NCBI RefSeq assembly: GCF_004101785.1
Contig: NZ_CP035130.1
Location: 1,674,001-1,738,000 of the forward strand
Reading direction: 5' to 3'
Origin: Gudongella oleilytica
GTDB taxonomy: Bacteria > Bacillota > Clostridia > Tissierellales > Tissierellaceae
DNA length: 64,000 nt
A program made the position numbers and the translations under genes. Shown one piece after another: positions 8,323 through 61,912 of this stretch (positions are counted from its first letter, which is position 1; each line of letters starts with the position of its first letter). The notes beneath the pieces were generated by a model that had not been told where the DNA came from, did not search any database, and worked only from the letters and a program-made list of their open reading frames with translations.

Positions 8323-8735
8323 TCAAATTCCTCCTCACACTTGTCGTTGAAACGCCGGATGGGTATGCCGCGCTTTTTTGCCTTGGCGATTTCCCGCGAC
8401 ATGCCAGCTGATATATGGCGACCGAACACCCAAAGCTCGTCGCATTTCCCGAGCCAGACCAGCCCGAAAAACAACCCAAGCTCCCGCTCGGTAAGGTCAT
8501 TTTCATCCAGCACCTGCGGATAAAGCAGGTGGGGAGCGAAGGGAATCGCCCCACTTACCACCGCAAAACGTGTGTACCGGATAGCCCTCATGGTGTTTGT
8601 TTCAATATCTCCGGCAAAGGGTGAGCAGATGAACACGCAGGGCTTCCATGCTTTCGCTTTTTCCTCCCGAGCTACAGCCGCTAAAGCATCGGCAGCTGTT
8701 GGGTCGGGGTAGTGCTCTGCGTTAAATCTGTCCAT
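8319..8735 (-). CDS. DUF4406/DUF7768-type nucleoside deoxyribosyltransferase-like protein
   Basis: The start at 8735 (MDRFNAEHYPDPTAADAL) is chosen because GGAGGTGG lies 6-13 bases upstream; it overlaps the antirepressor end by 14 bases. The 138-residue product carries VFICSPFAGDIETNTMRAIRY and later CDELWVFGRHISAGMSREI, the pattern of small Rossmann-like proteins related to nucleoside 2-deoxyribosyltransferases (DUF4406). Such proteins are frequent in phage replication regions, and a role in nucleotide metabolism is assumed rather than shown. Confidence 0.75.
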   Translation of the reverse strand: MDRFNAEHYPDPTAADALAAVAREEKAKAWKPCVFICSPFAGDIETNTMRAIRYTRFAVVSGAIPFAPHLLYPQVLDENDLTERELGLFFGLVWLGKCDELWVFGRHISAGMSREIAKAKKRGIPIRRFNDKCEEEFE

Positions 8736-9504
8736 TGCCGCCACCTCCAACGAGAAAGTAATTGACGAAGTACTGCTGACCCTTGCCAGTGACCTTGGTG
8801 GTCTTTGAAATGGTGACATGACCATCTGAATGGGTGATGGCCGTTTCCTTGACCTTGAACAGCCCCAGTTCCATTGCCTTTTGTGTTGGTGCATTGTAGT
8901 CTGTGCCCTTGCGCTTAATCAGGAAGCCATCCTGTCTTAACCTTTCAAACAAACGGTTCTGGCCGATATCAATTCCGTTGCCTTTGAGAATCTTGGCAAG
9001 CTCGCCGATAAGAATGGTTCCGTCTGATACGGACACCGCATCGGCAAAGACCACCTTGGGCTTGTCTACCTCAGTCTGAAGCTGCAGGCGTTCCTTTGCC
9101 TGACGTTCCTCCTTCAGCGCAGTCAGTACCTTGATCCAGACATCTGGGTCATTCATGATTTCTTCCAGCTTATCCGAGGTAAGATAGGCTCCGTGCTTTC
9201 GGATGGTTGGCAGGACCTCGTGGGTGACCCAGCGTTTAAATTTCCGGGCCTCGGGTTTGTCTGAACGCAGGATAACGTTGTAAAGCCCGCTCTCATTGAC
9301 GATGTTTGTTTGCTGCTGCCGCCCCATACTGTCGATGACGTAAGCCTGACTTACATCATCCGAATCAAGTCGATCTGCAATCATGCGAGCATTACTAAGC
9401 TCCAGCACATCACACACATCCTTGAGCACCCACCAAGGCTCGCCACCTCTCTGGATTGTTCTGACTTCCTTGCCCTCGTAGGAGAAAACCTGTAAATTGT
9501 TCAT
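8722..9504 (-). CDS. Phage antirepressor, BRO-N plus KilAC
   Basis: A 260-residue protein. Residues 1-110 are a BRO-N DNA-binding domain (EPWWVLKDVCDVLELSNARM, then GLYNVILRSDKPEARKFKRW). Residues 130-250 are a KilAC/ANT domain (GELAKILKGNGIDIGQNRL, then FLIKRKGTDYNAPTQKAM). Proteins of this build counteract the lysogeny repressor. Unusually for an antirepressor, it is placed deep in the early operon behind DNA polymerase and has its own structured leader (9510-9588). Translation starts at the ATG at 9504. Confidence 0.9.
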   Translation of the reverse strand: MNNLQVFSYEGKEVRTIQRGGEPWWVLKDVCDVLELSNARMIADRLDSDDVSQAYVIDSMGRQQQTNIVNESGLYNVILRSDKPEARKFKRWVTHEVLPTIRKHGAYLTSDKLEEIMNDPDVWIKVLTALKEERQAKERLQLQTEVDKPKVVFADAVSVSDGTILIGELAKILKGNGIDIGQNRLFERLRQDGFLIKRKGTDYNAPTQKAMELGLFKVKETAITHSDGHVTISKTTKVTGKGQQYFVNYFLVGGGGNGQI

Positions 9505-9509
9505 AATAG

Positions 9510-9588
9510 AACCGTCCTTTCTGAAGGCGCGAAGATTTTGTATTTGGCCTTCGCTTTAAGCCAGGAGAAAGGACGGTTTCGGACGGTC
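9510..9588 (-). promoter_or_regulatory. Repeated structured leader, copy A (before antirepressor)
   Basis: On the minus strand this spacer folds as a long stem: the 13-base arm at 9566-9578 pairs perfectly with 9510-9522, and an inner GAAGGC/GCCTTC stem adds to it. The downstream arm contains AGAAAGGA, the antirepressor's Shine-Dalgarno site, so the stem would hide it. Eighteen bases beginning TAAGCCAGG and the TCGGACGGTC block are shared with copy B at 13861-13929. The function, probably translational control or attenuation, is inferred from structure only. Confidence 0.6.
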
Positions 9589-9601
9589 TATATAAAATTT
9601 T

Positions 9602-11569
9602 CTAATCTTTTTTATAGAATGGGCACACATAGCCCTCGGCACGAAGCAATAACCCTTTTGCCCAAGACGGAGTTTTGCTCATTTTTGAGCATAAGTCTTG
9701 TAGTGAGAGTTTTTCATCCGCTTCGATTACAATTTCATCATGCACATGCATGACAATCTCATAAGCCTTAAAAGCCTGCAGCGCATGACAGAGGATATCG
9801 CGTGAAATGGCTTGGACGATGTTTTCCACAAGCTTTGGGCCATAGGTTTCGATGCGCTCCCATTTCTTCGTTGCGCCTACACCCTCATAGGTCACCGCAT
9901 CGCTTCCAAAGCGATTCTGGCCGAGCTTCGGCTTCACATATGAAAGTCGTCTGCCTGAAGGTAGCGTTATGAACAGCATGCCGCTTCTGCATTCAAATTG
10001 AATACCGTGGGTTGTCGTTACAGCTCGCTCCCTGACAGCGGTCATGACAGCCCTGTCTACCTCCCACCAAAACCGGACGATGTAGGGGTTGGCCGACCTC
10101 CATGCATTGACTAGCGACTGAAGCTCAACTTCTTCAACACCCATATCAAGGGCACCCATGGCTTTCAGCGCACCGACCGAGCCCCCATAGCCTAAGGCAA
10201 GCTCAGCAATTTTACCTTTTTGCCTTAAAGGACTGCCTTTAGTGATTTCCTCAATGGGGACATGAAACATCTGACTAGCCGATGCTTCATAGATCCGGCC
10301 GTGGGTAGCAAACACCTCGTTTCGCCAGGACTCGCCAGCCAGCCACGCAATAACGCGGGCTTCGATCGCTGAAAAGTCAGCTACAATGAACGTATAACCG
10401 GCTTTTGGAATAAAGGCGGTTCGGATGAGCTCCGACAGCACCTCCGGCACAGTATCATAGAGCGCTTCCAGCAGGTCATACTGACCAAGCCTCACCATCT
10501 GCCTTGCTTGCTCCAAATCTGGCAGGTGGTTTTGGGGCAGATTCTGCACCTGCACGAGTCTTCCGGCCCAGCGCCCGGTCCGATTCGCACCGTAAAACTG
10601 TAAAAGCCCACGAACCCTGCCATCAGAGCAGACGGCATTTTGCATGGCAGTATATTTCTTGACACTGCTTTTGGCCAGAGACTGCCTGAGCTCCAGCACC
10701 TGGCCGAGCGGCTCAGGCGCTGTTTTCAGAAGCTCCTTTACGGCAGCCTTGCCCAGGGTGTCGGTTTCTAAGCCCTGTTCTGCCAGCCACGCCTTCATCT
10801 GCGCGACTGAGTTTGGGTTATCCAGCTCAGTCATTTGCTGCATCCGATAGGTGAGCTCCTGTTTGGCCCTGCTGTCAAAGCGAATGGCCTCACCTACGAG
10901 CTCCAGATCCAGACGGATGCCACGATCATTTATTTCTTGATCAAGAATATAATTCGGCCATTCAAAAGATGGTACAGGGAACTTGTGAAGCTTGGCTTGG
11001 ATCTCAAGCTCGGTTTCCACATCACGGGCATTGTATGCTTTATACTTCTCCCACTTTTCCGGGGCATCAGCCGGCAGGTTCCTCTCCCGCCCGCCATTTA
11101 CCTTTGACGGCTTGCAGGGCATCGAGAAATATCGGATCAGGTCTTTTCCTTCCTTGAGCTTTTGCTTTTCAAGTCCCAGCACCGCTCCGGCACCTTCCAG
11201 TGAAAGAGGCAAGCCCAGATAGGCCGACCAAACCATGGTACAGCGCCAGGATACTGGGCTTATAAATTGGCTTTCAGGATTATTCTGATCCAGCGTTATA
11301 CCTTGCCTAGACAGCCATCGTGATAGGCAGATCCGTTCAAACTGGGCATTGAAGGCCCACTTTATGACTGCATCATCCGTAAGAGCTCTGATGATTTCCT
11401 CCGGCAGAGCTTCACCGCTGGCAAGGTCAACAACCTGTACTTCACCACCATCAATGGAATAACCGAACAGCAGTATGTCAAAGTCCGGGACCTCCGAGTA
11501 ACGGTAAACACCGCTTTTCATCAGATCAAAGCTGGAGAACGTTTCAATATCGCATGAGAGTGTTTTCAT
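9602..11569 (-). CDS. Phage DNA polymerase, family A
   Basis: A 655-residue polymerase I-like enzyme without a 5'-3' nuclease domain. The 3'-5' exonuclease begins at the N-terminus (SCDIETFSSFDL, with D6 and E8) and includes AYNARDVETELEI near residue 180. Polymerase motif A is FIVADFSAIEARVIAWLAG (about 397), motif B is RQKGKIAELALGYGGSVG (about 450), and motif C is VMHVHDEIVIEAD (about 617). It replicates the phage genome. The gene starts behind GGAGG at 11572-11578 and is preceded by a GC-rich hairpin. Confidence 0.95.
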   Translation of the reverse strand: MKTLSCDIETFSSFDLMKSGVYRYSEVPDFDILLFGYSIDGGEVQVVDLASGEALPEEIIRALTDDAVIKWAFNAQFERICLSRWLSRQGITLDQNNPESQFISPVSWRCTMVWSAYLGLPLSLEGAGAVLGLEKQKLKEGKDLIRYFSMPCKPSKVNGGRERNLPADAPEKWEKYKAYNARDVETELEIQAKLHKFPVPSFEWPNYILDQEINDRGIRLDLELVGEAIRFDSRAKQELTYRMQQMTELDNPNSVAQMKAWLAEQGLETDTLGKAAVKELLKTAPEPLGQVLELRQSLAKSSVKKYTAMQNAVCSDGRVRGLLQFYGANRTGRWAGRLVQVQNLPQNHLPDLEQARQMVRLGQYDLLEALYDTVPEVLSELIRTAFIPKAGYTFIVADFSAIEARVIAWLAGESWRNEVFATHGRIYEASASQMFHVPIEEITKGSPLRQKGKIAELALGYGGSVGALKAMGALDMGVEEVELQSLVNAWRSANPYIVRFWWEVDRAVMTAVRERAVTTTHGIQFECRSGMLFITLPSGRRLSYVKPKLGQNRFGSDAVTYEGVGATKKWERIETYGPKLVENIVQAISRDILCHALQAFKAYEIVMHVHDEIVIEADEKLSLQDLCSKMSKTPSWAKGLLLRAEGYVCPFYKKD

Positions 11570-11585
11570 ATGGCCTCCTTAGCGG

Positions 11586-11613
11586 AAAAGGGCGGCAAGA
11601 AATCCCGCCGCCC
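11586..11613 (-). terminator. GC-rich hairpin between DUF2815 gene and polymerase
   Basis: GGGCGGC (on the minus strand, 11613-11607) pairs with GCCGCCC (11596-11590) and is followed by TTTTCC. This looks like an intrinsic terminator or attenuator that would lower polymerase expression relative to the DUF2815 protein upstream. Confidence 0.55.
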
Positions 11614-11638
11614 AATCTTTAGTATTTTGCGTATCCCC

Positions 11639-12220
11639 TTAGCCAAGGAAGTCCTCGCCGTCATAGTCTGATGCAAAATCATCTGCAGCACTAGTCCTTC
11701 CACCCAGGGGCTCGCCATCCTGGACCTTCTGGATATTGCCTAAGCCGCAGGCGACACCTCGGTTGCCGTTGGAGTTGAAGGCGTAAAAATTGATGCTGAC
11801 CCTTGCGTATACTCCGGAGTAAACCTCCGAACGGCTTATGATCGGATTCAGGGACTTGTCCACTATCTCCGGAGCAGAATTGGAGTTGGCGTTCACAAAG
11901 TAGCTGTCTGCGTATGCCTCATCGTCCGGGCGGTCGATATCACCGTCACGAAGTGGAAGCTTCAGAGCGGCCTTATTCGGAATCTTCCCACCAAACTTAC
12001 CGCGACCTTCCTCGATGGCAGCATCAACCGCTTTGTTAATAGCCTCAAGGGTTTTGGTATCGTACTTTGGAATGATGAGAGAAACGCTGTATTTTTCTGC
12101 GCCTCCATTGATGCTTTTGGGCTCATGGACATTGGCATAGCTGAGACGGACTATGCCTGTGACAACCTTAGTGGGATTCACCCTAACACCTGTGTTTGTT
12201 TTATTTGCTGTGTTTGACAT
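11639..12220 (-). CDS. DUF2815 family protein (phage ssDNA-binding-like)
   Basis: The start at 12220 (MSNTANKTNTGVRVNPTKVV) fits an AAGGAGG site a few bases upstream; a longer frame to 12340 overlaps the previous gene and is unlikely. The 193-residue product has the beta-rich DUF2815 core (GIVRLSYANVHEPKSING, VSLIIPKYD, then VYSGVYARVSINFYAFNSN) and an acidic C-terminal tail ending SDYDGEDFLG. Acidic tails of this type are the hallmark of single-stranded DNA-binding proteins. The gene order nuclease, binding protein, polymerase supports a replication/recombination role. Confidence 0.85.
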   Translation of the reverse strand: MSNTANKTNTGVRVNPTKVVTGIVRLSYANVHEPKSINGGAEKYSVSLIIPKYDTKTLEAINKAVDAAIEEGRGKFGGKIPNKAALKLPLRDGDIDRPDDEAYADSYFVNANSNSAPEIVDKSLNPIISRSEVYSGVYARVSINFYAFNSNGNRGVACGLGNIQKVQDGEPLGGRTSAADDFASDYDGEDFLG

Positions 12221-12221
12221 A

Positions 12222-13346
12222 TTAAATTTCCTCCTTAAAATCTTGTTTTGCGGATGTATTGATTTCCGGTCGTTTATCGGTAATGGGTACCAGCGCCGGC
12301 TTTCCCGGTGGCTTTTCAATGAGCTCACCAAGGATTTCACTAAATTTTGCTTTGCTCATCAGCTTCTCCATTTCGGTGAGGGTAATCAGGGATTGTCGGT
12401 ATATATCGCGGTAACCGGCAGCCTTTGCAGCCTCTGCGACGGCTTCCTCGTTCTTATACCTTCTGTTTGAGCGGCCCTCCACCAGCTTGAAGCCACACCA
12501 GCGCTTGCCGTGGTTGAGTGCTGCTTCAAGGGCATAGTTTCTGATGTCATTTGCCCAGGCTGTCAGGTCGTCCAGCTTTGCTATGATGCCTTCGATGTCG
12601 TCGTCCGTGAGGACTGGTGGCAACGAGAACTCAAACCGTGCAAGGTTCAGCTTTTCCTCAGCCCTTGCCCGACACTTGACTGCTGCCCGGCAGAACTGAC
12701 AATGATCGCCGGGTACAAATTCACCGCCACCTTCAAAGGCGAGCTTTGCAGTCGGGACCAAGATCTCTTCAGCCCACTGATAGAGAGACTCCTTAAACAC
12801 TGTGTAGGTGCTGGCATTTTCTCTTCGTGGCTGGTAAATTGACATTGACACTTCGCTTATGTCGTATATCCCGTCGAATAGCTCTAAGGCAGATAAGCCA
12901 TAAAGCTTCATTTGTGGATTTTCTTCAGCGTGGACCAGGGTCCATCCGAATTTGAAATCTACGATATGAAGCGTCCTATCGCCGATAACCACACAGTCAC
13001 CGGTGCCAAAGCCATCCGGTACGAAGCGTGAAAAGTCCAGGCGCTGCTCAATCAGGATCGTTGGATCTGAGCAGGTTTGCTTTAGCCCCGCAAGAATCTC
13101 CAATACGAAATCAACGTAGCCATCGGTGGCGGCTTCCATTTCATCTGAGTCATACTTTGAGACTGGTCTTTTCGTGCGTAGCTTGAGGGCCTTTCGCAGC
13201 TTGTGTTCTGCTAGTGCATGGGCAGCAGAGCCCTCGGCGGCGGCCTCGCCGCTGTTGTCTGCAAACTCCTGTTCCAGTCGAGGTGCTCTTGTACAGATCA
13301 ACCAGCGATGCGCACTTGATGCGGATAGAATCGCATGCTTGCTCAT
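12222..13346 (-). CDS. DUF2800 RecB/Cas4-like nuclease (phage)
   Basis: A 374-residue protein. The N-terminal segment SASSAHRWLICTRAPRLEQ is typical of DUF2800. A PD-(D/E)XK nuclease core follows, with GTGDCVVIGDRTLHIVDFKFG supplying D and the D-x-K equivalents near residues 115-135. A cysteine cluster is CQFCRAAVKCRARAE (about 225), plus CT near the start, resembling the iron-sulfur cluster of Cas4/AddB nucleases. It probably acts as a DNA exonuclease in phage recombination together with the DUF2815 protein. Its ATG overlaps the previous stop by 4 bases. Confidence 0.87.
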   Translation of the reverse strand: MSKHAILSASSAHRWLICTRAPRLEQEFADNSGEAAAEGSAAHALAEHKLRKALKLRTKRPVSKYDSDEMEAATDGYVDFVLEILAGLKQTCSDPTILIEQRLDFSRFVPDGFGTGDCVVIGDRTLHIVDFKFGWTLVHAEENPQMKLYGLSALELFDGIYDISEVSMSIYQPRRENASTYTVFKESLYQWAEEILVPTAKLAFEGGGEFVPGDHCQFCRAAVKCRARAEEKLNLARFEFSLPPVLTDDDIEGIIAKLDDLTAWANDIRNYALEAALNHGKRWCGFKLVEGRSNRRYKNEEAVAEAAKAAGYRDIYRQSLITLTEMEKLMSKAKFSEILGELIEKPPGKPALVPITDKRPEINTSAKQDFKEEI

Positions 13347-13660
13347 TTGAGTACCTCCGCATCCGCCAATAGAGCTGCATAATTTACCGGATCAATCTGG
13401 CTGAGCTTTGGTGCTCCGTACTTTTCGAGAAGCCCCCGCACCTCTGCAGTAAACCCTTCCTGGCTTTTTTCGGCCAATGCTGCTCTGACGTGCTCAAGTG
13501 ATACCGGCTTTTCTGTGGTTTTTGGTTCAATAAAGGTCGGTACCCCTGGTGCAACCTTGGCAGGTTCATTGCCCGCCATCGTCTCAGCTGCAGCTTGGAT
13601 GCTGTCCGCCAGAGAGCGCATGTTATCGACCACATCAAGGAGTAGCTTGATTTTACTCAC
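13343..13660 (-). CDS. Small phage protein of unknown function
   Basis: The start is placed at the GTG at 13660 (MSKIKLLLDVVDNMRSLADS), 8 bases after GGAGG; a TTG further up (13681) would put the ribosome site inside the gene. The product is 105 residues: an N-terminal helix, a Pro/Thr linker at residues 40-55, and a C-terminal domain with EVRGLLEKYGAPKLSQID. Relatives are regularly found next to DUF2800 genes in prophages, sometimes under misleading names. Coupled by overlap to both neighbours. Confidence 0.7.
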   Translation of the reverse strand: MSKIKLLLDVVDNMRSLADSIQAAAETMAGNEPAKVAPGVPTFIEPKTTEKPVSLEHVRAALAEKSQEGFTAEVRGLLEKYGAPKLSQIDPVNYAALLADAEVLK

Positions 13661-13847
13661 CGCTTTCACCTCCCTCCTCAACGATGGACAGCGCTTTTAC
13701 GCTGTCGCCGGGTACAATGACCGTCAGCCTTTGCTTGTCTCCAAGCAGGAAGCGAAGTAGTCGCTCCCGCATGGTGACATGTCGGCAGCCGACGATCCCG
13801 CCACCTGGCGGTTCCTTTGAAACACTGATTCTGAGTGTGTGTCTCAT
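13653..13847 (-). CDS. Small phage protein of unknown function
   Basis: A 64-residue basic protein (MRHTLRISVSKEPPGGGIV) starting at the ATG at 13847, with AGGTG 6 bases upstream; a GTG at 13856 is the alternative. It overlaps the start of the 105-residue gene by 8 bases. Residues 20-45 are rich in Arg and Leu. No family known to me. It is the first gene behind the second copy of the repeated leader. Confidence 0.6.
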   Translation of the reverse strand: MRHTLRISVSKEPPGGGIVGCRHVTMRERLLRFLLGDKQRLTVIVPGDSVKALSIVEEGGESGE

Positions 13848-13860
13848 GTGCTTCACCTTG

Positions 13861-13929
13861 CCTTTCTGAAGGCTGTATTGTTTGTGCCTTCTGATGTAAG
13901 CCAGGAGAAAGGACCGAATCGGACGGTCC
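13861..13929 (-). promoter_or_regulatory. Repeated structured leader, copy B
   Basis: The element begins immediately after the sigma-like gene's stop. It contains a GGACCG/CGGTCC hairpin, then CCTTTCT (13912-13906 on the minus strand) pairing with AGAAAGG (13867-13861), enclosing a GAAGGC/GCCTTC stem. Its sequence matches copy A at 9510-9588 in several blocks. It lies between genes of one operon. Confidence 0.6.
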
Positions 13930-14321
13930 TAATCAAGAAAATTTCTGAGCTTCTTTTTTGCTCTATCTACGGCATGGCGAATGGCAGATTCATCCTTACC
14001 CTCTAAAGCGGCAAGGTCGGTATATGACCAACCCTCCAGCAGGCACTTGCGAAGCAGGTATTGCTGGCGTTCGTTCAGGCAGGACATGGCCTGGCCGATA
14101 ACCTCAGAGTCGATTAAATCCGCGAGCAGGTCGGTGCCATCGCTAAAATAGCGAACATCCTCGTATTCAAAGGTAGAAAGCTGTGTGTGGCGATCTCTTC
14201 GAGAATTTTTGCGGTCATTTTTCTTCTCTGCTTCGATTGACTCCAAATAGAAGGTTCCAACCTCTTCGGATACCTCCAGTTCGATGATTTTACCGTCAGC
14301 ATTTTTGTAATTGATTTTCAT
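13929..14321 (-). CDS. Phage sigma-70 region 4-like regulator
   Basis: A 130-residue protein. Residues 70-130 match sigma-factor region 4: LNERQQYLLRKCLLEGWSY, TDLAALEGKDESAIRHAV, then DRAKKKLRNFL, a helix-turn-helix with a basic C-terminus. No regions 2 or 3 are present, so it cannot act as a full sigma factor; it more likely redirects host RNA polymerase or activates phage promoters. The N-terminus (KINYKNADGKIIELEVSEEV) is a short beta segment. Its ribosome site lies inside a hairpin (14325-14350). Confidence 0.8.
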   Translation of the reverse strand: MKINYKNADGKIIELEVSEEVGTFYLESIEAEKKNDRKNSRRDRHTQLSTFEYEDVRYFSDGTDLLADLIDSEVIGQAMSCLNERQQYLLRKCLLEGWSYTDLAALEGKDESAIRHAVDRAKKKLRNFLD

Positions 14322-14666: not shown

Positions 14667-14819
14667 CTAAGATGCTTTGAGTTCTGATTTTTCGTTGCAG
14701 GTAACTGTAACGAATTTCCCACACTGTGGACACTTGAGGTTTACCTCGACTTCTTCTTTTGGAAGGTCCGATATATCAAAGGCTCTCCGGCCGCAGTTTG
14801 GGCACTTCATTTTCTTCAT
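14667..14819 (-). CDS. Com-like zinc-ribbon protein, 50 residues
   Basis: The first gene of the minus-strand early operon. An ATG at 14819 follows GGAG. The product begins MKKMKCPNCGRRAFDIS and has two C-x2-C knuckles (CPNC and CPQC) spaced as a zinc ribbon. Phage Mu Com-type proteins with this layout bind RNA or DNA to regulate expression. It sits directly below the early promoter at 14995-15023. The role here is inferred from size and motif. Confidence 0.7.
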   Translation of the reverse strand: MKKMKCPNCGRRAFDISDLPKEEVEVNLKCPQCGKFVTVTCNEKSELKAS

Positions 14820-16292: not shown

Positions 16293-16574
16293 ATGCATTA
16301 TGTAGAACCCGAACTCAAAGAGAGGATCATCAAGCTACGCATTCAAGAGGGCCGAACCTATCAGAGCCTATCCGATGAATATGGTTTCCCTCGGACTGCC
16401 ATGAGTCGTTGGGTGAAAAAGTATCGAGCGGATGCGGCCAATAGTGAGCGAAAGGCCAAACAGATCGCCGACATGGAAGAGATACGGAGCCTCCAGCGGG
16501 AAGTGGAAGAGCTTCAAAAGGAAAACGACTTCCTAAAAAAAGCGGCGGCGTTCTTTGCCAAGGAGAGCAAATAG
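16293..16574 (+). CDS. IS3-family transposase OrfA
   Basis: A 93-residue protein with a helix-turn-helix at residues 20-50 (RTYQSLSDEYGFPRTAMSRW) and a leucine-zipper-like coiled coil at 55-85 (EEIRSLQREVEELQKENDFL). It binds the element's ends. AAAGGAG lies ahead of the ATG. The coding end carries the heptamer A-AAA-AAA (16535-16541), where ribosomes shift by -1 into orfB. Confidence 0.92.
   Translation: MHYVEPELKERIIKLRIQEGRTYQSLSDEYGFPRTAMSRWVKKYRADAANSERKAKQIADMEEIRSLQREVEELQKENDFLKKAAAFFAKESK
16535..16541 (+). promoter_or_regulatory. Programmed -1 frameshift site
   Basis: Seven A residues sit in phase as A-AAA-AAA in the orfA frame. The -1 frame is open from there without a stop to the orfB region and continues IARYHFIDKYARRFGTNWLM into the annotated orfB start, giving a fused OrfAB transposase. 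Confidence 0.7.
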
Positions 16575-16627
16575 CTCGATACCACTTTATCGACAAGTAT
16601 GCCAGGCGCTTTGGAACCAATTGGCTC

Positions 16628-17455
16628 ATGGAGCGCCTGGGGGTTTGTCCGAATGGGTATTACAACTACAAGAAGCATCGCAAGAGCGCCGGTGAAAAGA
16701 AAAAGGCTTCTGTATTGAGAACCATTGAACGGCTGTATCATGAGACCGGCGGGAGACCCGGCTATCGCATGATGAAACAGCTTTTGGCCAACCAAGGCAT
16801 TGTACTCAGCGAGCAAACCGTGCGCAAGTATATGAACGTGGAGCTTGGACTCAAATCTGTGACACGGAAGCCGAAATACCGCTACCGCAAAGGGCCGAAA
16901 GCGCTGACAGTATTTGACAACCTTCTGCGGGAGGGCTTTTGTGCAGATAGGAGGAATGTACGCTGGTGTATCGACTTCACATACCTCTTTCTTGCCAATC
17001 GGAGCAAGCGATACAACTGCTGCATCATGGATTTGTTTGACCGTCGTGTCGTAGCCAGCGTGAACAGCGATCGCATCGACACAAAGCTTGCGATCGCCGC
17101 CTTAGGCAAGGCCATTGCGAACACCGGGGGTGAAACCGGAATGATTCTTCATTCCGACCGCGGCAGCCAGTTCACATCGAAGGAATTCATCGAATTCTGC
17201 GAAGAGCACGGTGTGATCCAAAGCATGAGCAAGCCTGGCTGCCCTTACGACAACGCTCCCATCGAGCGCTACTTCAACACTTTGAAGGCGGAGCTGATCA
17301 ACTTGAGATCCTTCGAAACCGAAGCCATGCTGTACGAAGAAGTAACCGCTTACGCCTACGGTTGGTACAACAATCAGAGACCTCATACCTACAACGGCGG
17401 CTTGCCGCCAGCTAAGGTCGTTGAAAAACAACAGAGCCATTACAATTTTGCTTGA
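16628..17455 (+). CDS. IS3-family transposase OrfB (DDE integrase core)
   Basis: A 275-codon frame counted from the internal ATG; the functional protein is probably the OrfAB fusion entered at 16541. The rve domain has the catalytic D in WCIDFTYLF, the second D in LHSDRGSQFTS and the E in NAPIERYFNTLKAE, which completes the DDE triad. The HTH_21 region (GGRPGYRMMKQLLANQGI) precedes it. No stop or deletion interrupts the frame, so the element looks active. Confidence 0.92.
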   Translation: MERLGVCPNGYYNYKKHRKSAGEKKKASVLRTIERLYHETGGRPGYRMMKQLLANQGIVLSEQTVRKYMNVELGLKSVTRKPKYRYRKGPKALTVFDNLLREGFCADRRNVRWCIDFTYLFLANRSKRYNCCIMDLFDRRVVASVNSDRIDTKLAIAALGKAIANTGGETGMILHSDRGSQFTSKEFIEFCEEHGVIQSMSKPGCPYDNAPIERYFNTLKAELINLRSFETEAMLYEEVTAYAYGWYNNQRPHTYNGGLPPAKVVEKQQSHYNFA

Positions 17456-17779: not shown

Positions 17780-19145
17780 GGTACCGTCCAGTATTTTTCG
17801 CAAATTAGTTTTTGACCGTTTGGGTTCTGCCTATACGACAACCGTTTCCGGGATCGTCAGATCCATCATCTCCAGCCGTTTCATGTTCAAATAGCGTTTC
17901 GATCCCCACTGGGTGCCGGCCACGTGCCTGAGCCTCGCACAGACGAGCATCAAGGCGGAATTGCCATCAGGGAAAGTGCCCACGACTTTTGTACGGCGCT
18001 TGATCTCCCGGTTCATTCGTTCAATGGTATTGGTCGTTCGGATCTTGGTCCAATGCTCGCTGGGGAAACTCATATAGCTCAGGGTTTCCTCAATTCCGGC
18101 TTCCAGTTTCTTCGCCGCCTCATGCAGTTTCATCTCTCGAAGTTGAATGGCAACCTGTTTGGCCTTCTCCCGGGCCGCCTCTTTGCTCTCCTGTGCGTGG
18201 ATCGCTTTCAGCATCCGGCTGATCAGCTTCATCCGGATTCTGGGAGTCGTTGTGAAGATATTTCGGTAGAAATGGACCACGCAGCGTTGGTATTTGGCTT
18301 CCGGGAAGACTTCAGCCACCGATTCCACCATTCCAAGGCAGCGGTCTCCAACGATGAGGCGTACTCCGGATAGTCCTCTACTTTTCAACCACTTGAGGAA
18401 CTGGGTCCAGCTTTCCTTATCTTCCTTCATTCCTTCTGCTGCGCCGATCACTTCCCGGTAGCCGTCTTCGTTAACGGCGATGGCGACCAATACGGCCACG
18501 TTCTCATATTCGCCGCCCCAGTTGCGTTTCAGGTAGATGCCATCCACGTAGACATAGGGATAACTTCCTCCCTGCAGCGGGCGATTTCGCCACTCCTCGA
18601 TATGGACATAGGCCTTCTTGTTCAGCTCACTAATCGTGGCAGGAGATACACGGCTTCCCCAGAGTACCTGGGTGATATCCTCCACCCGCCGAACCGATAC
18701 GCCAGCCAGGTACATCTCGATCAAGGCTTCCTCAACCGAGCTTTCTCGACGTTGGTATCGCTCAATGATGGCTGTCTCAAAGGCAACACCTTTCAGTTTC
18801 GGAATCTTTAGATTCACATCGCCAGACGTTGTTGTGAGGTTTCGGTCGTAGTGACCGGATCGGTAGCCGGCACGATCCGCCGTCCGTTCATACTTCCCGG
18901 CATTCGTAAGGGCGTCAGCTTCCGAATCCAGAAGCTCATTGAGAGTCTCTTCCACGCTCTTTCGGACCAGGTCTTTCAATTCCTCTTTGATTACGCCTTC
19001 GTTTAATTGTATAATCTTATTGGACATGTGTTTGGCCTCCTTTGGTAGTTTGTGTGTTGCAACTCTATTTTACCAAACGGCCTCGCCCATGTCCTTTCTA
19101 TTTTTGGGCTGGAATTCTAATTTGCGAAACTTATTGTACATTATC
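17780..19145 (-). mobile_element. IS256-family insertion sequence, 1366 bp
   Basis: The 29-base ends match at 22 positions, with a perfect inner core TTTCGCAAATTAG (17796-17808 and, inverted, 19117-19129). The element carries one transposase gene on the minus strand and is flanked by GAACTCAA on both sides. It lies in codon 7 of hsdM. Confidence 0.9.
17831..19027 (-). CDS. IS256-family (mutator-type) transposase
   Basis: A 398-residue full-length transposase. The DDE catalytic core includes YVYVDGIYLKRNWGG (first D, about residue 161), VRLIVGDRCLGMVESVAEVF (second D) and TTNTIERMNREIKRRTKVVG (E). The N-terminal DNA-binding part holds LDSEADALTNAGKYERT. No frameshift or stop is seen, so the element is probably still mobile. 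A GGAGG-like site precedes the ATG at 19027. Confidence 0.95.
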   Translation of the reverse strand: MSNKIIQLNEGVIKEELKDLVRKSVEETLNELLDSEADALTNAGKYERTADRAGYRSGHYDRNLTTTSGDVNLKIPKLKGVAFETAIIERYQRRESSVEEALIEMYLAGVSVRRVEDITQVLWGSRVSPATISELNKKAYVHIEEWRNRPLQGGSYPYVYVDGIYLKRNWGGEYENVAVLVAIAVNEDGYREVIGAAEGMKEDKESWTQFLKWLKSRGLSGVRLIVGDRCLGMVESVAEVFPEAKYQRCVVHFYRNIFTTTPRIRMKLISRMLKAIHAQESKEAAREKAKQVAIQLREMKLHEAAKKLEAGIEETLSYMSFPSEHWTKIRTTNTIERMNREIKRRTKVVGTFPDGNSALMLVCARLRHVAGTQWGSKRYLNMKRLEMMDLTIPETVVV

Positions 19146-26883: not shown

Positions 26884-27233
26884 TGGTGGAGGCGGTGGGT
26901 GTCGAACCCACGTCCGAAAATCCTTCCACAAGAGCTTCTCCGAGTGCAGTCAGCAATTTCACATTCCCTCTACCCATCTCCTGCTGACAGGATATGGGCT
27001 TTAGTAGCTTCATAGGTTCCGTTTCCAGCTCAAAGCTTTGCCGGACTCGGTTCCCCACTTAGATGACGATTCTATCCAGGTCGTGGGAATCCCGGCAGAA
27101 TCGAGCAGCTATATTAAGCTGCTAGTGCGTAATTATCGTTTGCGTTTAATTTAGTTGCCACTTTTAACGTTGCTTGGCGACAACGACTCGCTACTCCTGA
27201 TTCCGTATCCCCGTCGAAACCAAGTTCGCCCCC
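26884..27233 (-). ncRNA. ssrA: tmRNA (ssrA)
   Basis: A 350-nt one-piece tmRNA. The 5' end GGGGGCGAACTTGG and the 3' end with GGGTTCGACACCC and CCA form the tRNA-like acceptor and T arms. The open frame encodes the tag ANDNYALAA (27143-27117) followed by TAA. It rescues stalled ribosomes with SmpB, whose gene lies 60 bases upstream. The 3' end faces the mobile region, and tmRNA 3' ends are common integration sites for phages and islands. Confidence 0.96.
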
Positions 27234-43916: not shown

Positions 43917-44924
43917 CTACATCTTTGAAGCTATGAGACTTGCCAGGTCGACTACTCTTCTTGAGTAACCCCACTCATTGTCATACCATGATACTACTTT
44001 AACCATGTTGTCTATTACCATTGTAGAGTCGGCATCCACTATAGATGACCTATTATCTCCAACGAAATCTCTTGATACCAGAGGTTCTTCACTGAATCCG
44101 AGGATTCCTTTTAATTCTCCCTCGCTTGCTTCCTTGAGGAATGCATTTACCTCTTCCTTGGTAGTCGGTTTTTCCACTTCGAAAACTACGTCCACAAGTG
44201 ACACTGTAGGCACTGGAACCCTTAATGCAAATCCATTCAGCTTGCCCTTAAGCTCCGGAAGAACAAGGGAAACCGCTTTTGCTGCACCTGTAGTAGTCGG
44301 TATTATATTCTCGGCTGCAGCTCTTGCTCTTCTAAGATCCTTATGTCTCTTGTCATGGACCATCTGGTCATTTGTATACGCATGAACAGTGGTCATAAGG
44401 CCTTTCTTTACCCCCAGCTTGTCAAGTATCACCTTTGCAACAGGAGCAAGACAGTTTGTCGTACAGGATGCGTTGGATATTACCACGTGTTTCTCCGGGT
44501 CATACAAATGGTCATTAACACCCATTACAATGGTTATGTCCTCATCCTTTGCAGGAGCGGTTATCATCACCTTTTTGGCACCTGCTTCAATGTGTTTCAT
44601 AAGGTCTTTCTTATCCTTGAAAGCTCCGGTGGAGTCTATAGCAAGGTCTACTCCAAGCTTTCCCCAGGGAATATCTATCGGATCTCTGAAAGCAACCACT
44701 GGAATCTTCTTCCCATTAATAATAAATCCTTTGTCATAAGTCTCGATGGTTCCCTCGAACTTCCCATATATACTGTCATACTTGAAAAGATGAGCCAAAT
44801 CCGGAATGTTGCCAGATGCATTTATAGCAACTATCTCAAAGTCCTCTACATTTTGCTCAGCCCAAACCCTGACCACATCTCTACCTATCCTGCCAAATCC
44901 GCTTAATCCCACTCTTAAAGTCAT
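43917..44924 (-). CDS. gap: Glyceraldehyde-3-phosphate dehydrogenase, type I
   Basis: A 335-residue enzyme. NAD binding begins VGLSGFGRIGRDVVRVW; the catalytic Cys is in SNASCTTNCLAPVAKV (about residue 153) and the base His in HAYTNDQ. DNEWGYSRRVVDL is the C-terminal signature. It oxidises glyceraldehyde-3-phosphate to 1,3-bisphosphoglycerate. First enzyme gene after the regulator cggR, 18 bases apart. Confidence 0.98.
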   Translation of the reverse strand: MTLRVGLSGFGRIGRDVVRVWAEQNVEDFEIVAINASGNIPDLAHLFKYDSIYGKFEGTIETYDKGFIINGKKIPVVAFRDPIDIPWGKLGVDLAIDSTGAFKDKKDLMKHIEAGAKKVMITAPAKDEDITIVMGVNDHLYDPEKHVVISNASCTTNCLAPVAKVILDKLGVKKGLMTTVHAYTNDQMVHDKRHKDLRRARAAAENIIPTTTGAAKAVSLVLPELKGKLNGFALRVPVPTVSLVDVVFEVEKPTTKEEVNAFLKEASEGELKGILGFSEEPLVSRDFVGDNRSSIVDADSTMVIDNMVKVVSWYDNEWGYSRRVVDLASLIASKM

Positions 44925-44942
44925 ATAAATTCCTCCTCTTGA

Positions 44943-45956
44943 TTAGTTTTTAATTTCTAATATTCTATTTGCCACAGCTTCATCTATGACCAGAGTCATG
45001 TCCTTTCGGATCGATGAAACGGCAATAATCGCCTCTGCCTTCTCAGTTCCGCCGGCAACTCCGATAACCTCCGGAACTTTTAGATATGTTTCCAGTGAAA
45101 GCCCCACTGTTTTATACTCCCAAAGATCTCTTCCTGAAATGTCAAAATAATGTCCAAACGCCTCTGCCACCGCATTATTCCTCATCAGGTCATCAAACTT
45201 GCTTTCAGGGAGCGTCCTCCTCCTTGCCATTGTATCGGCGCGACCTATACCAAATAGCAATACTCTCATGTGATCGATCATTTTCAGTATTTCTTTTATC
45301 TCCTCGTTTCCGAGGGCAAGCCGTTTTGCATCTTCGCCCATGCTGTCAGGGAGATAAAGCAGTCTGTATTTCGCTCCCAAAGCTTGTCCGATCTTTGCTG
45401 CTATTGAGTTTGATTGAGTGTATATATCAGTCCCAAGTCCTCCTCTGGCAGGTATTATAGTAACATCCGGATATCTTTTCTCTGATGTTATCACGTCTGC
45501 CACGACAGCCATAGTACTGCCTCCTGTAACGCCAACGATATCTCTGCCATCAAGCTTTTTCTTCAGTATTTCCGCTGCTGAACGACCCATCTCAGCGAGA
45601 ACCAGATTGCTTGTTGAAGAATCTCCAGGTACTACCATTAAACACTTTACTCCTATAGCTTTTATAACCCTTTCTGTCAGCTCAGGTATCCCCTTGATGG
45701 AATTATACGCTTCATCCAGACTCTCCAATAGCTCCAGACCCGAGTCTGTAACATACATACCCATATTGTCTGAGTTTAATAACCTAAGACCTTTCATAAT
45801 ATCCAGCTCTGACCTGGCTATCCTTTCAGATAAGCCAAGCTCAGCTGCCAAGGTTCTCCTTCCAACCGGTTGTCTGAAGGCAACTGTCTTAAGGATAAGA
45901 TATCTCCTTTCGAGGATGTCTATTGCCTCAGGTGCTATTATTGACAATCTATTCAA
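44943..45956 (-). CDS. cggR: Central glycolytic genes regulator CggR
   Basis: A SorC/DeoR-type repressor of about 337 residues. The helix-turn-helix is at residues 25-60 (RRTLAAELGLSERIARSELD) and the sugar-phosphate-binding domain spans 85-335 (GVTGGSTMAVVADVI, VVPGDSSTSN). In Bacillus it is released by fructose-1,6-bisphosphate. The start is odd: the only common codons in frame are TTG at 45956 and one further in, yet GGAGGTGG lies 16 bases before that TTG, which is too far. An in-frame ATT at about 45968 would suit the site better, as in infC. Adjacent gap and the operator at 45985-46021 fix the identity. Confidence 0.93.
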   Translation of the reverse strand: MNRLSIIAPEAIDILERRYLILKTVAFRQPVGRRTLAAELGLSERIARSELDIMKGLRLLNSDNMGMYVTDSGLELLESLDEAYNSIKGIPELTERVIKAIGVKCLMVVPGDSSTSNLVLAEMGRSAAEILKKKLDGRDIVGVTGGSTMAVVADVITSEKRYPDVTIIPARGGLGTDIYTQSNSIAAKIGQALGAKYRLLYLPDSMGEDAKRLALGNEEIKEILKMIDHMRVLLFGIGRADTMARRRTLPESKFDDLMRNNAVAEAFGHYFDISGRDLWEYKTVGLSLETYLKVPEVIGVAGGTEKAEAIIAVSSIRKDMTLVIDEAVANRILEIKN

Positions 45957-45984
45957 GAATTCTATAATACCACCTCCTATACTA

Positions 45985-46021
45985 TGGACTAATTATGTCC
46001 CGGCGATTATATATTTGTCCC
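45985..46021 (-). promoter_or_regulatory. CggR operator
   Basis: On the minus strand, TGGGAC (46022-46017) and CGGGAC (46002-45997) are direct repeats exactly 20 bases apart, the spacing of the known Bacillus operator (CGGGAC-N6-TGTC-N4 twice). They lie downstream of the promoter at 46052-46080 and before cggR, so CggR would block elongation or initiation of its own operon. Confidence 0.7.
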
Positions 46022-46051
46022 ACCATGGGTAAAAAAATATAGCTCACTTAT

Positions 46052-46080
46052 ATTATAGTACAGGGTTGGCTTATTTGCAA
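46052..46080 (-). promoter_or_regulatory. cggR-gap operon promoter
   Basis: TTGCAA (46080-46075), 17-base spacer, TATAAT (46057-46052). The spacer also carries one arm of an 8-bp hairpin (GGGTTGGC 46063-46070 with GCCAACCC 46082-46089) that follows rpoN, so end of rpoN and start of the glycolytic operon overlap. Confidence 0.75.
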
Positions 46081-46092
46081 GGCCAACCCCAA

Positions 46093-47463
46093 TTAATATC
46101 TCCTTCTGAGTGTCGATGATGGAATATTCAACTCATCTCTGTATTTTGCGACTGTTCTTCTGGATATCTCGACGCCTTTCTTTTCGAGGATCTCAGATAT
46201 TTGCTGGTCACTTAAAGGTTTTTTGGGATCTTCACCAGCCACCATGGATCTAATCATCGATTTCACGCATGTAGCGGATACGTCCCCGTCAGTGCCTGAA
46301 AGCCCTGTGGTAAAGAAATATTTAAGTTCAAATACTCCTCTTGGAGTTTGTACATATTTCCCATTAGTAGCCCGTGAAATCGTAGATTCGTGCATCTTTA
46401 CGTCCTCTGCGACTTCCTTCAGAGTCATCGGCACGAGAACCTTTTCCCCATGCCTGAAAAATTCTCTTTGTCTGTTCAGAATCGATTCAATTACTTTATA
46501 AAGCGTTTTCCTTCTCTGTTCAATGCTCTTGATTATCCAAAGGGCTGAATTGAACTTTTCCTGTAGAAATTCAGAGGTTTTTTCATCAGTTGTGTTTATT
46601 ATAAGATTCTTGTAATACTCATTAATGTTAAGCCTAGGTCCGGAAATGTCGTTAATGGTTATAATTAACTCTCCATCGATCTCTTCAATGGATGCATCAG
46701 GTACGATATACCTAATGTCCTCTCCATCGCTTCTGAAGGTTCTTCCTGGTTTTGGTTCAAGGGACTTGACCCAGTCTGCGTATTCCTGTGCATCCTCGAT
46801 TGTTATGCCCAAATCCTTTGATATCTTTGCCAGCTTATTGGAAGCAATATCCTCCAGGTAATTCATGATGATATTTTTAAGTATCTGATCTTTAGTATCT
46901 TTCACCTGCAGCAGCAAGCATTCTTTAAGATCCCTTGCACCGACCCCGGTTGGTTCAAAGCTTTGGATCACTGAAAGCATAAGCTCGACCTCTTCAATCG
47001 AGACGCAAAGCTGAGCGGCAATATCCTCAGCAGTTGAGGAAAAATAACCATTGCAGTCTATATTGTTTATGATGTAATCGGCTATTCTGTACTCTCTTGA
47101 GCCTATGCTTATCATGTTCAGCTGCTCAGTAAGATGATCCCTGAGGGTAGGCGAATAGCTGATGTAATTATCCATGGAGTACTCATTTCTGGATCTGTCG
47201 ATTTCACTTTTGTAGCTTATATCATCGAAGCTTTCAAGAAACTCCTTCAAATCAACGTCCTTATCTTCCTTCAGGTTTTCTATCGTTTGGGAGTCCACGT
47301 CGCTTCTTTCCATTTCGAGCATCGGATTTTCCTCCAGCTCCTTTGAAAGATAATCCCGAAGCTCCAGGCTTGTATATTGGAGCAGCTGAATAGCCTGCCT
47401 GAGTTCTGGAGTCATTACCAGCTTCTGGCTTTGCTCTAACGTTAAATCATAATTTAACCTCAT
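46093..47463 (-). CDS. rpoN: RNA polymerase sigma-54 factor
   Basis: A 456-residue sigma-54. The Gln/Leu-rich activator-interacting region is at the N-terminus (LTLEQSQKLVMTPELRQAIQ), the acidic linker at 50-75, the core-binding domain at 100-250, and the RpoN box RRTVAKYRDEL near the C-terminus. It directs transcription that needs an AAA+ activator; no activator gene or clear -24/-12 site is seen in this window. Own promoter at 47496-47524. In a conserved place next to cggR. Confidence 0.97.
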   Translation of the reverse strand: MRLNYDLTLEQSQKLVMTPELRQAIQLLQYTSLELRDYLSKELEENPMLEMERSDVDSQTIENLKEDKDVDLKEFLESFDDISYKSEIDRSRNEYSMDNYISYSPTLRDHLTEQLNMISIGSREYRIADYIINNIDCNGYFSSTAEDIAAQLCVSIEEVELMLSVIQSFEPTGVGARDLKECLLLQVKDTKDQILKNIIMNYLEDIASNKLAKISKDLGITIEDAQEYADWVKSLEPKPGRTFRSDGEDIRYIVPDASIEEIDGELIITINDISGPRLNINEYYKNLIINTTDEKTSEFLQEKFNSALWIIKSIEQRRKTLYKVIESILNRQREFFRHGEKVLVPMTLKEVAEDVKMHESTISRATNGKYVQTPRGVFELKYFFTTGLSGTDGDVSATCVKSMIRSMVAGEDPKKPLSDQQISEILEKKGVEISRRTVAKYRDELNIPSSTLRRRY

Positions 47464-50428: not shown

Positions 50429-51739
50429 TTATTTTTCGAATACTGTTTGTTCAGTTACTTCAACCGTCAATGCGTTAAGAGCTTTTTCAACGATTTTTCT
50501 TCTCAGAGCTTTCTCCTCCGCCGGATCCAATGCTGGATTTCCAAGCGGGTGAGGTATAGCGATCGCAGGAACGATCCTGTTTGCTCCTACTGTCAGCGAT
50601 ATTGGAACTACAGTACAGATGTGGACTACTGGTATCCCGGCTCTTTCTACTTCTTTTACCATCGTTGCACCGCAACGAGTACAGGTACCTCAGGTTGAGG
50701 TCAGGATAACTGCATCTACTCCATCAGCGACAAGTTCTTTGCTGAATTCAGCAGCAAATTTCTTGGAGCTGGCTACTGCAGTACCATTACCTACTGTAGT
50801 ATAGAAGTATCTATGAAGCTCACCAATCTTGCCTTCCTTCTCAAGATCTCTCAATACATCTACAGGAAGAACTCTGTCAGCGTCAAGATTTGCATATACA
50901 GGGTCGTATCCGCCGTGAGCAGTTGCATAGGTATCAACAGTCAGGTCATAAACTCCATCTATGTCGTATTTCCCGTACTTGGAAGCTGATGATGATTCTA
51001 TGTGATCCGGATTTCCCTTTGGCACAATACCGCCTGAGGTTACAAGTGCGATCTTAGCTTTGGAAAGATCCTTTACTGCAGGATTTGGTGGTACTCTGTC
51101 AAAGTCTGGCATTGGATATTCTGTCTCGAACTCCTCACCCTTCAATTTCTTAAGGAGCATATCTACAGCTCTCTCTGATCCTCTTTTTTCTGCGAAATAG
51201 TTCTTTCTGACTCCTCTTGGAAGGTAGCCTTCAACCTCAGGAGCACCTATCTCTTCCTTGCTGACAAGCTTCTTTGCCAGCGGAACCATAGCTGCAACTG
51301 CATCCTTCATTCCTACAGCACTATTCTTGGTGGATATTATATAAACTGACTTCTTATACATATCAGCGCCCGGGTTTTCGATATACATGCCAGTCAAAGC
51401 AGGTATCCCCAGTTCCGCTTGAACGGCTTCTGTTATCGCACCACAAGCAACTCCGTATCTTCCTGCATTGAAAGCAGGGCCTGCTATAAACAGATCAGGC
51501 GAGTAGCCCTTGACCATCTCCAGCACAGCAGCCTTGGCATCATCCATGTTCTCACCAAAATAGCTGTCCCCGCAGATAACAGTAGCAACGATTTCAGCTT
51601 CCCCTCCAAAACCAGCCTGAATAGCAAGACCAGGACCAAGTGCACCTTCTCTGACCTCTGGTTTGTGGTCAGCTTTTTCCTCTCCGCCTATGCCGGCAAA
51701 GAACTGGTTAATATAATGTACAATTCTTAATTTCCCCAT
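50429..51739 (-). CDS. grdB: Glycine reductase protein B, substrate subunit GrdB (selenoprotein)
   Basis: The gene runs through an in-frame TGA at 50692-50690 read as selenocysteine: TST-Sec-GTCTRCGATMVK, the U-x2-C-x2-C centre of GrdB (Sec at residue 350). The full product is 436 residues, matching the family. Protein B binds glycine as a Schiff base through the pyruvoyl group of GrdE, and GrdB's selenium passes the carboxymethyl group to GrdA. A 76-residue frame after the TGA has no start of its own and is the C-terminus. A SECIS hairpin is expected just after the TGA but I did not fold one. Confidence 0.96.
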
Positions 51740-54953: not shown

Positions 54954-54996
54954 TAAAAAAACAGAATAAATAGACCTATTCGCCTACTTACTCTGT
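54954..54996 (-). terminator. Riboswitch-controlled terminator
   Basis: A 13-bp stem with two G-U pairs (54984-54996 with 54961-54973) followed by a T run. Its first six bases (CAGAGT, 54996-54991 on the minus strand) also complete the P1 stem of the second glycine aptamer, so binding of glycine would prevent the terminator: an ON switch. Confidence 0.85.
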
Positions 54997-55165
54997 TTAT
55001 TAACCTGAGAGATTCTCCCGATCCAAATGAAGGGATTGCTCCTTCGGTGAGTGACGCCTTTCCAGAGTTCTGTCCTATTGCGGTCCTTTTGCCTGAGAGG
55101 TTCGCAACAGAGGGGCTATCTCTGTCATTTACTCCTTCGGCGCCACCTTGTGGGCTCTCCCGCAA
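54990..55165 (-). promoter_or_regulatory. Tandem glycine riboswitch
   Basis: Two aptamers are visible on the minus strand, each with the conserved CCGAAGGAG core and CTCTCAGG. The first begins GCGGGAGAGCCC (55165) and ends AAAGGACCGC. The second spans GGACAGAACTCTGG to the CAGAGT at 54996-54991, with P1 formed by ACTCTG (55068-55063). It precedes trxB and so controls the whole reductase operon in response to its substrate. Confidence 0.95.
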
Positions 55166-55232
55166 TGATCATCCAAAATAATTCAAAATTTTTCATGACA
55201 TTTTGTTACATTTTTAACAACTTTACAAGGTA

Positions 55233-61672: not shown

Positions 61673-61719
61673 CTGATAGCGGTAAAATAGATCCCTCCCT
61701 CCGAGTCAAGAACCAATGG

Positions 61720-61880
61720 CTCTTGCTAACACAGGCAGATATCCTGACTTACGGATCATCCTAATTTCAGCGCCTTCCCGGTTTCCCAGTGGCATAAAGC
61801 TGATTTCGTTCCCGTTCACAGTAGCGGGGGCTGTAGTGGATTTTAACCACTTTCCCTTTTAAATCTCTTGGAGATACCCA
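61720..61880 (-). promoter_or_regulatory. Cobalamin riboswitch
   Basis: On the minus strand the conserved pieces are in order: AAAGGGAA, AAAATCCAC, the B12 box with GCCCCCGCTACTGTGA, GCCACTGG, CCGGGAAGG and GTAAGTCAGGATATCTGCC. Located directly before btuF-btuC-btuD, with a terminator between. Confidence 0.95.
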
Positions 61881-61883
61881 TGT

Positions 61884-61912
61884 GGTATATTTAGCTGTGG
61901 TAATCATATCAA
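61884..61912 (-). promoter_or_regulatory. btuF operon promoter
   Basis: TTGATA (61912-61907), 17-base spacer, TATACC (61889-61884), immediately before the riboswitch and 11 bases after the VanW gene stop. Confidence 0.6.

Follow-up and report, generated by a model that had tools for sequence, protein, structure and literature searches.

In a phage early operon of Gudongella oleilytica, two spacers 4 kb apart and flanked by unrelated genes carry near-copies of the same sequence, which raises the question of what such a repeated element does for the genes that follow it. The window, by which we mean the whole 64,000-nucleotide stretch analysed (contig NZ_CP035130.1, positions 1,674,001 to 1,738,000), holds copy A at 9510–9588, between a DNA polymerase I-like gene (9602–11569) and an antirepressor gene (Bro-N / ANT; 8722–9504), and copy B at 13861–13929, between the gene for a 130-aa sigma-region-4-like protein (13929–14321) and a 67-aa ORF of phrog_7234 (13653–13856), all on the minus strand. 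Because the genes and the element run on that strand, the element is read from it, and its order, 5' to 3', is GACCGTCCGA, CCTTTCT, CCTGGCTTA, GAAGGC, GCCTTC, AGAAAGG and the start codon.

The original prediction had noticed two shared blocks and a common pairing order in these spacers, together with a 13-bp outer stem in copy A covering the ribosome site of the antirepressor, and all of this is borne out. The 18-base block TAAGCCAGGAGAAAGGAC is identical at 9557–9574 and 13897–13914 (with up to three mismatches it has three matches in the window, two of them without mismatch, where 0.07 are expected), the 13-base block CCTTTCTGAAGGC is identical at 9516–9528 and 13861–13873, and a direct repeat of 51 nt with 78% identity joins 9538–9588 to 13878–13928. 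In copy A the SD arm of the antirepressor, AGAAAGGACGGTT (9510–9522), and an anti-SD arm, AACCGTCCTTTCT (9566–9578), make a perfect inverted repeat of 13 bp around an inner hairpin region, GAAGGC ... GCCTTC (9523–9552), that is seen in the repeat, the fold and the alignment of copies. In copy B the corresponding arm CCTTTCT (13906–13912) and the SD of the 67-aa ORF, AGAAAGG (13861–13867), can form 7 bp only, and the predicted minimum-energy fold pairs them partly with other partners. Folded as the minus-strand RNA, the mRNA sense, copy A reaches -32.0 kcal/mol (z -4.85) and copy B -30.2 kcal/mol (z -4.46), each better than 200 of 200 shuffles. The two copies are genuine and stand well above chance.

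No Rfam family matches the element, either in the whole window or in 9300–14100 with E up to 5; RF02960 DUF2800 RNA, a 158-nt structured RNA which the element does not match, stays below its covariance-model gathering score in the window and finds nothing with E up to 5 in 9300–14100. Among 10 relatives RF02960 has a sole match, in L191 (2874–3028, 103 bits) upstream of the sigma-like gene, so that this operon can combine control elements of two kinds. Rfam families do occur elsewhere on the minus strand of the window, namely a tmRNA (26884–27233), SECIS_4 (50652–50689), a tandem glycine riboswitch (54990–55172) and a cobalamin riboswitch (61717–61896), and ORFs that by eye resemble IS3-type and IS256-type transposases (16293–17455 and 17831–19027) adjoin the phage repressor region.

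An exact 16-mer scan of viral contigs returns 10 stretches, with the surrounding element in L011 alone, and blastn of copy B against phages returns 9 records, all with E of about 9. A pattern allowing two mismatches matched 51 genomes among 100 relatives and was dropped because its reversed control was matched fairly often too. The polymerase then served as bait to collect the best 80 of 316 viral and the best 80 of 157 bacterial loci, and a profile built from four copies, those of the window and of L011, identifies both positions in nine of these loci (L011 and L036 counted once), one match among the nine having an E of 0.07 only. Searches with the 67-aa ORF match 96 of 160 loci, the weakest match (L117, E 8) being spurious; four additional scans with this protein yield 40, 4, 23 and 36 loci, and the pooled B regions comprise 131 unique sequences, 91 of them less than 93% alike.

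These relatives reveal a common plan: an A/T-rich stretch, a first conserved box (box1), a variable spacer, a second box (box2), often a hairpin (GAGGGC ... GCCCTY), then the SD and the start codon. In the window type box1 is ACCGTCCGATTC or ..GAAAC and box2 is GGCTTA; copy A has box1 ACCGTCCGAAAC at 9576–9587, conserved in 23 aligned copies, and box2 at 9557–9562, and copy B has box1 ACCGTCCGATTC at 13916–13927 and box2 at 13897–13902, within the 18-base block, all aligned with the other copies. Box1 comes in dialects, ACCGTCCGATTC of the window type, ACCGTCAGATTY, ACGTCCTTTTG, GGGGTTCGAA of type II and TACTCAAA of type III, with GACTAAA or GCGGAAAA in Streptococcus phages; the type II form presumably resembles a tRNA T-arm (L156, 3404–3440, GGGGGTTCGATTCCCCC, and other type II loci). 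Two sites recur: the B site precedes the block that leads to the polymerase, ahead of its first gene, and the A site directly follows the polymerase stop, where the downstream genes vary. Strict patterns place the element at the A site in 95 of 161 loci (66 type I, 29 type II), and looser patterns find an A element at 120 of the 161, a B element at 86 and the two together at 77; the strict patterns are used for site counts because the loose type I pattern matches 363 of 3220 random windows (strict, 62 of 3220). Tandem second elements lacking an SD lie upstream of the main one at the B site of L135, L161, L165, L172 and L176, and also after the sigma-like stop in type III loci.

Within a phage the type agrees: all 58 unique A/B pairs, including two with out-of-register B matches (L040, L164), have the same box1 type at both sites. 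In type I the agreement of box1 is higher between true partners (0.82) than between shuffled ones (0.70), in part through relatedness, since the spacer also agrees better with its own partner (0.52 against 0.44). Both window copies are members of a widespread control element that opens early gene blocks in a large group of Firmicutes phages. The replication module carrying it belongs to the core genes of Candidatus Heliusviridae, whose core block comprises DUF2800, DUF2815 and DNA polymerase I (PMC9226167).

The fixed A and B sites next to gene starts do not support the earlier suggestion of a small mobile intergenic element. If the sequence were mobile, or marked recombination junctions between phage modules, this would explain why it sits at module borders and why modules carrying it have moved, as the order in Javan630 compared with that of the window indicates. 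We nevertheless consider it very improbable: a blastn-type search with copy A finds two copies in the host's own 2.36-Mb genome and otherwise only matches of 13–14 bases, and adjacency to start codons, overlap with the SD and constant internal spacing in relatives are not what such an element would be expected to show.

The explanation that we prefer, and to which we would give about an even chance, is that the element is a phage-specific promoter, with box1 as the -35 and box2 as the -10 region, whose spacer contains an anti-SD that hides the SD of read-through RNA. The boxes, their fixed spacing, the match of type within a phage, their positions, the terminators upstream in one class and the complementarity to the SD can be read directly from the sequences, and from them we infer promoter activity, its start point, its factor and the silencing of read-through RNA. 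Each such promoter would open an early gene block; the phage's own sigma-region-4-like protein would read box1, and transcription would begin just downstream of box2. RNA arriving from an upstream promoter would hold both strands of the stem, so that the SD would be hidden, and where a terminator-like hairpin overlaps the element this RNA would tend to stop before the next gene. RNA starting at the element would lack the 5' strand and leave the SD freer.

The fixed spacing is one point in favour of a promoter. All 66 type I A copies have their boxes 30 nt apart (the pattern allowed 29–31), and in eight Streptococcus phages the distance is 26 nt (6 sites) or 28 nt (15 sites), fixed by group in 21 of 21; the Streptococcus pattern was written after the sequences had been inspected, and shuffled spacers give 0.1 matches per set. 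A sigma70-like site is not found inside the element, where the two-box motif with its fixed spacing is present instead, and no complete sigma70-like site occurs between terminator and start codon in three loci scanned, although L299 (Javan630) has a 9-of-12 site that spans the start codon.

Placement bears on the principal rival, an RNA leader and nothing more, transcribed from upstream, in which a stem opens or closes over the SD and a phage protein acts on box1 or box2. In all 8 Streptococcus records, which form three groups of near-identical spacers, same-dialect elements stand on both strands of a divergent spacer of 252–401 bases between the polymerase block and the primase block; RNA from upstream genes is not expected to feed these elements. 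Elsewhere the upstream neighbours are late terminators, sigma-like genes or polymerase genes, and in the late-gene class the element follows the lysis genes and a terminator-like hairpin. Judged by eye from ORFs, 8 of 11 loci inspected have no sigma-like neighbour or have late genes upstream. Of 40 unique type I regions that have no adjacent sigma-like gene, 26 show a terminator-like hairpin immediately upstream, compared with 14 of 365 random regions. The window's own class has none in 18 regions, with none before copy B, type II has 3 in 15, and loci without the 67-aa ORF have 10 in 34, which counts against the promoter explanation. Javan630 has three sites in one dialect, all at block starts: one where its sigma-like gene ends, ahead of the antirepressor, one following the late terminator and one following the polymerase. 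Ruminococcus phage NatCom_38182 also has three, one of them where a gene ends whose region-4 match is sub-threshold. The Javan630 prophage record further contains, at 44205–46580, two aminoglycoside-type adenylyltransferase genes.

Upstream transcription is thus not expected to reach either the late-terminator class or the divergent spacers, and a constant distance between boxes with unstructured filling is likewise hard to reconcile with an RNA leader. That reading draws its support from the folding of both window copies far better than shuffles, from the overlap of the stem with the SD, and from the way in which the anti-SD of type I phages tracks its own SD (see below). It also has a precedent in phage Mu, where Com, a small zinc-finger protein, activates mom mRNA for translation (PMC6483171), and the window has a zinc-ribbon ORF (14667–14819) that weakly matches a family of phage translational regulators. 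This ribbon is found in few of these phages, however, HMM matches occurring in 9 of 161 loci, all nine of which also carry a sigma-like gene. Together with the absence of anti-SD covariation in type II, these points lead us to regard a pure RNA leader as rather unlikely. The proposal of a reusable RNA control element accordingly survives in that the element is reusable and tied to gene starts, whereas its conserved boxes and fixed distance look more like a promoter; of the two protein partners then suggested, the sigma-like protein is a good candidate and the zinc ribbon is not a general one.

The sigma-like protein, which would be the cognate factor, matches PF08281 above the curated cut-off (34.7 bits; cut-off 25.7) and belongs to phrog_11138. 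Its structural model (mean pLDDT 78, pTM 0.43), with an N-terminal part of two strands and a helix, resembles sigma -35-binding domains (3hug_E, target TM 0.82, rmsd 1.3, E 2.2e-3), and its best fold match by E value is an ECF sigma complex (E 9e-4). It shares this domain with sigma-70 region 4 (PF08281/PF04545) and ECF factors, but a region 2 match is lacking, Pfam giving region 4 alone, and the protein by itself would therefore not be expected to open a promoter. The gene lies directly upstream of the element in the window type, type II and type III. The putative recognition helix varies between dialects, which fits co-recognition, yet is confounded by shared ancestry. Against the promoter, a sigma-like gene is not found in Javan639, and at E < 1e-10 none is found for the ACCGTCAGATT and ACGTCCTTTT dialects, whose loci span at most 14 kb. 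That the sigma-like ORF might continue, after a frameshift, through the stretch between the boxes was considered and discarded, as some relatives by eye have stop codons there.

The second part of the proposed promoter, the hiding of the SD, begins from the observation that the stretch between box1 and box2 is complementary to the downstream SD, by 13 bp in copy A. The covariation that the original prediction called for is suggested in type I, absent in type II and equivocal in the window dialect. With 82 of 91 representatives parsed, the type I anti-SD gives -10.8 with its own SD and -9.45 with those of other phages (sd 0.29; 59 representatives; p 2e-4, relatedness not corrected), and the type II anti-SD does not follow its own SD (23 representatives, p 0.76). 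In the window dialect 65.5% of cells are paired, compared with 63.5% when shuffled and 42.6–54.7% when slid; 4 of 500 shuffles reach the observed pairing and 7 of 500 the covariation score, and pairs with two-sided changes number 5 against 6.3 in shuffles, which is no excess. RNAalifold finds no consensus in 37 B regions, and an initial duplex test was weak (-15.9 against -14.95, sd 0.41).

Predicted exposure of the SD is consistent with hiding, more clearly at A than at B. In the read-through RNA of copy A the SD is unpaired with a predicted value of 0.01, which rises to about 0.6 when the RNA is shortened to start after box2, and in copy B it goes from 0.32 to 0.5–0.75. Across relatives, the values rise at A from 0.20 to 0.38 in type I (31 of 37 rise) and from 0.19 to 0.39 in type II (14 of 18), and at B from 0.36 to 0.52 (32 of 46) and from 0.35 to 0.59 (12 of 15), respectively. 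Ordinary sites from the same loci, cut at a similar distance, also gain exposure, from 0.41 to 0.52 (135 of 200) and from 0.40 to 0.44 (121 of 200), which speaks against a special hiding mechanism; the gains of the elements (0.18, 0.20, 0.16 and 0.24) are numerically larger than those of ordinary sites (0.11 and 0.04). Read-through exposure is clearly lower than the ordinary 0.40–0.41 at A (0.20 and 0.19) and slightly so at B (0.36 and 0.35), and this nearness of the B values is a further point against hiding. Many type I A copies contain a hairpin, CACCTCCTGCC ... GGTAGGAGGTG, followed by T residues and terminator-like, and the A copies of type II by eye have box1 covered by a hairpin of terminator-like form.

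Some hairpins fall outside this scheme. Among 21 unique stretches of type III first copies, 16 form near-perfect hairpins of 13–17 bp without an SD and the other 5 are pattern misfires; hiding of an SD does not explain these box2 hairpins, because those first copies have no SD. They suit a different proposal, in which box1 and the box2 hairpin would act in RNA as the nut sites of lambda or the put sites of HK022 do, letting polymerase pass terminators in long early and late operons. A linear box plus a hairpin is the arrangement that this analogy would lead one to expect, terminators are present inside these operons, and where two operons diverge, the placing of a site close to the beginning of each is one that we take to parallel nutL and nutR. 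Terminators located just upstream of the element fit it poorly. So does the DNA-binding fold modelled for the sigma-like protein, and in divergent spacers the gap from terminator to box1 by eye leaves little room to place a promoter. We judge antitermination distinctly unlikely.

Box2 itself raises a further difficulty. In several dialects it is G/C-rich (GGCTAC, TGTCCTGTG), and a G/C-rich box is unusual for a -10 region, which tells against the promoter. In type I and Streptococcus copies it appears by eye to be palindromic (CTACCAGGTAG, CTTACTTAGTAAG), and this, with the single dialect shared by all sites of a phage, would be compatible with an operator at early promoters, bound at box2 by the lysogenic repressor, box1 being part of the promoter. 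The window-type box2 is not clearly palindromic, the flanking arms vary and the neighbouring gene is sigma-like, and as an explanation of the element an operator seems improbable to us, while a partly palindromic box2 may serve as one alongside other roles. Antitermination and the pure RNA leader remain rivals of the promoter because of this G/C-rich box2, the type III hairpins without an SD, the dialects in whose loci no sigma-like gene was seen, the lack of a terminator before copy B and the lack of an excess of two-sided changes.

A promoter with a hidden ribosome site would have close parallels in T4. The T4 genes e, soc, 49 and I-TevI have an inhibitory hairpin over the ribosome site, and e and I-TevI have a late promoter inside it (PMC3014915, PMC2988022), so that RNA from upstream hides the SD and RNA from the inside promoter, lacking the 5' strand, is translated. 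The same is predicted here, and in read-through RNA of the window copies the SD pairs with the upstream strand by prediction, as the values of 0.01 at A and 0.32 at B indicate. The differences are that the late promoters of T4 consist of TATAAATA boxes, for whose reading gp55 is used, whereas this element has two boxes in phage-specific dialects, that it stands at the starts of early replication blocks in Firmicutes phages, and that its start position is predicted from box2. In the literature searched we found no published account of the element and nothing on early-gene switching in this phage group, and in the main text of PMC9226167 the words promoter and sigma factor have no occurrence.

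It is tempting to extend the promoter explanation to the whole Firmicutes phage lineage that has the Heliusviridae replication module, a group reported from more than 90% of the participants of one gut cohort (PMC9226167). Such a lineage would use a private promoter family together with an orphan sigma-region-4 protein, their matched dialects changing together, and each promoter would carry an anti-SD or a terminator hairpin in its spacer, leaving each early block deaf to read-through; we put this forward tentatively, as a generalisation somewhat likelier to fail than to hold. If the promoter explanation is right, the element would provide a searchable operon-start signal and natural pairs of protein and DNA dialects for testing the recognition of -35 sequences by sigma region 4, and it would show that promoters which silence read-through RNA are known from T4 and from other phages as well.
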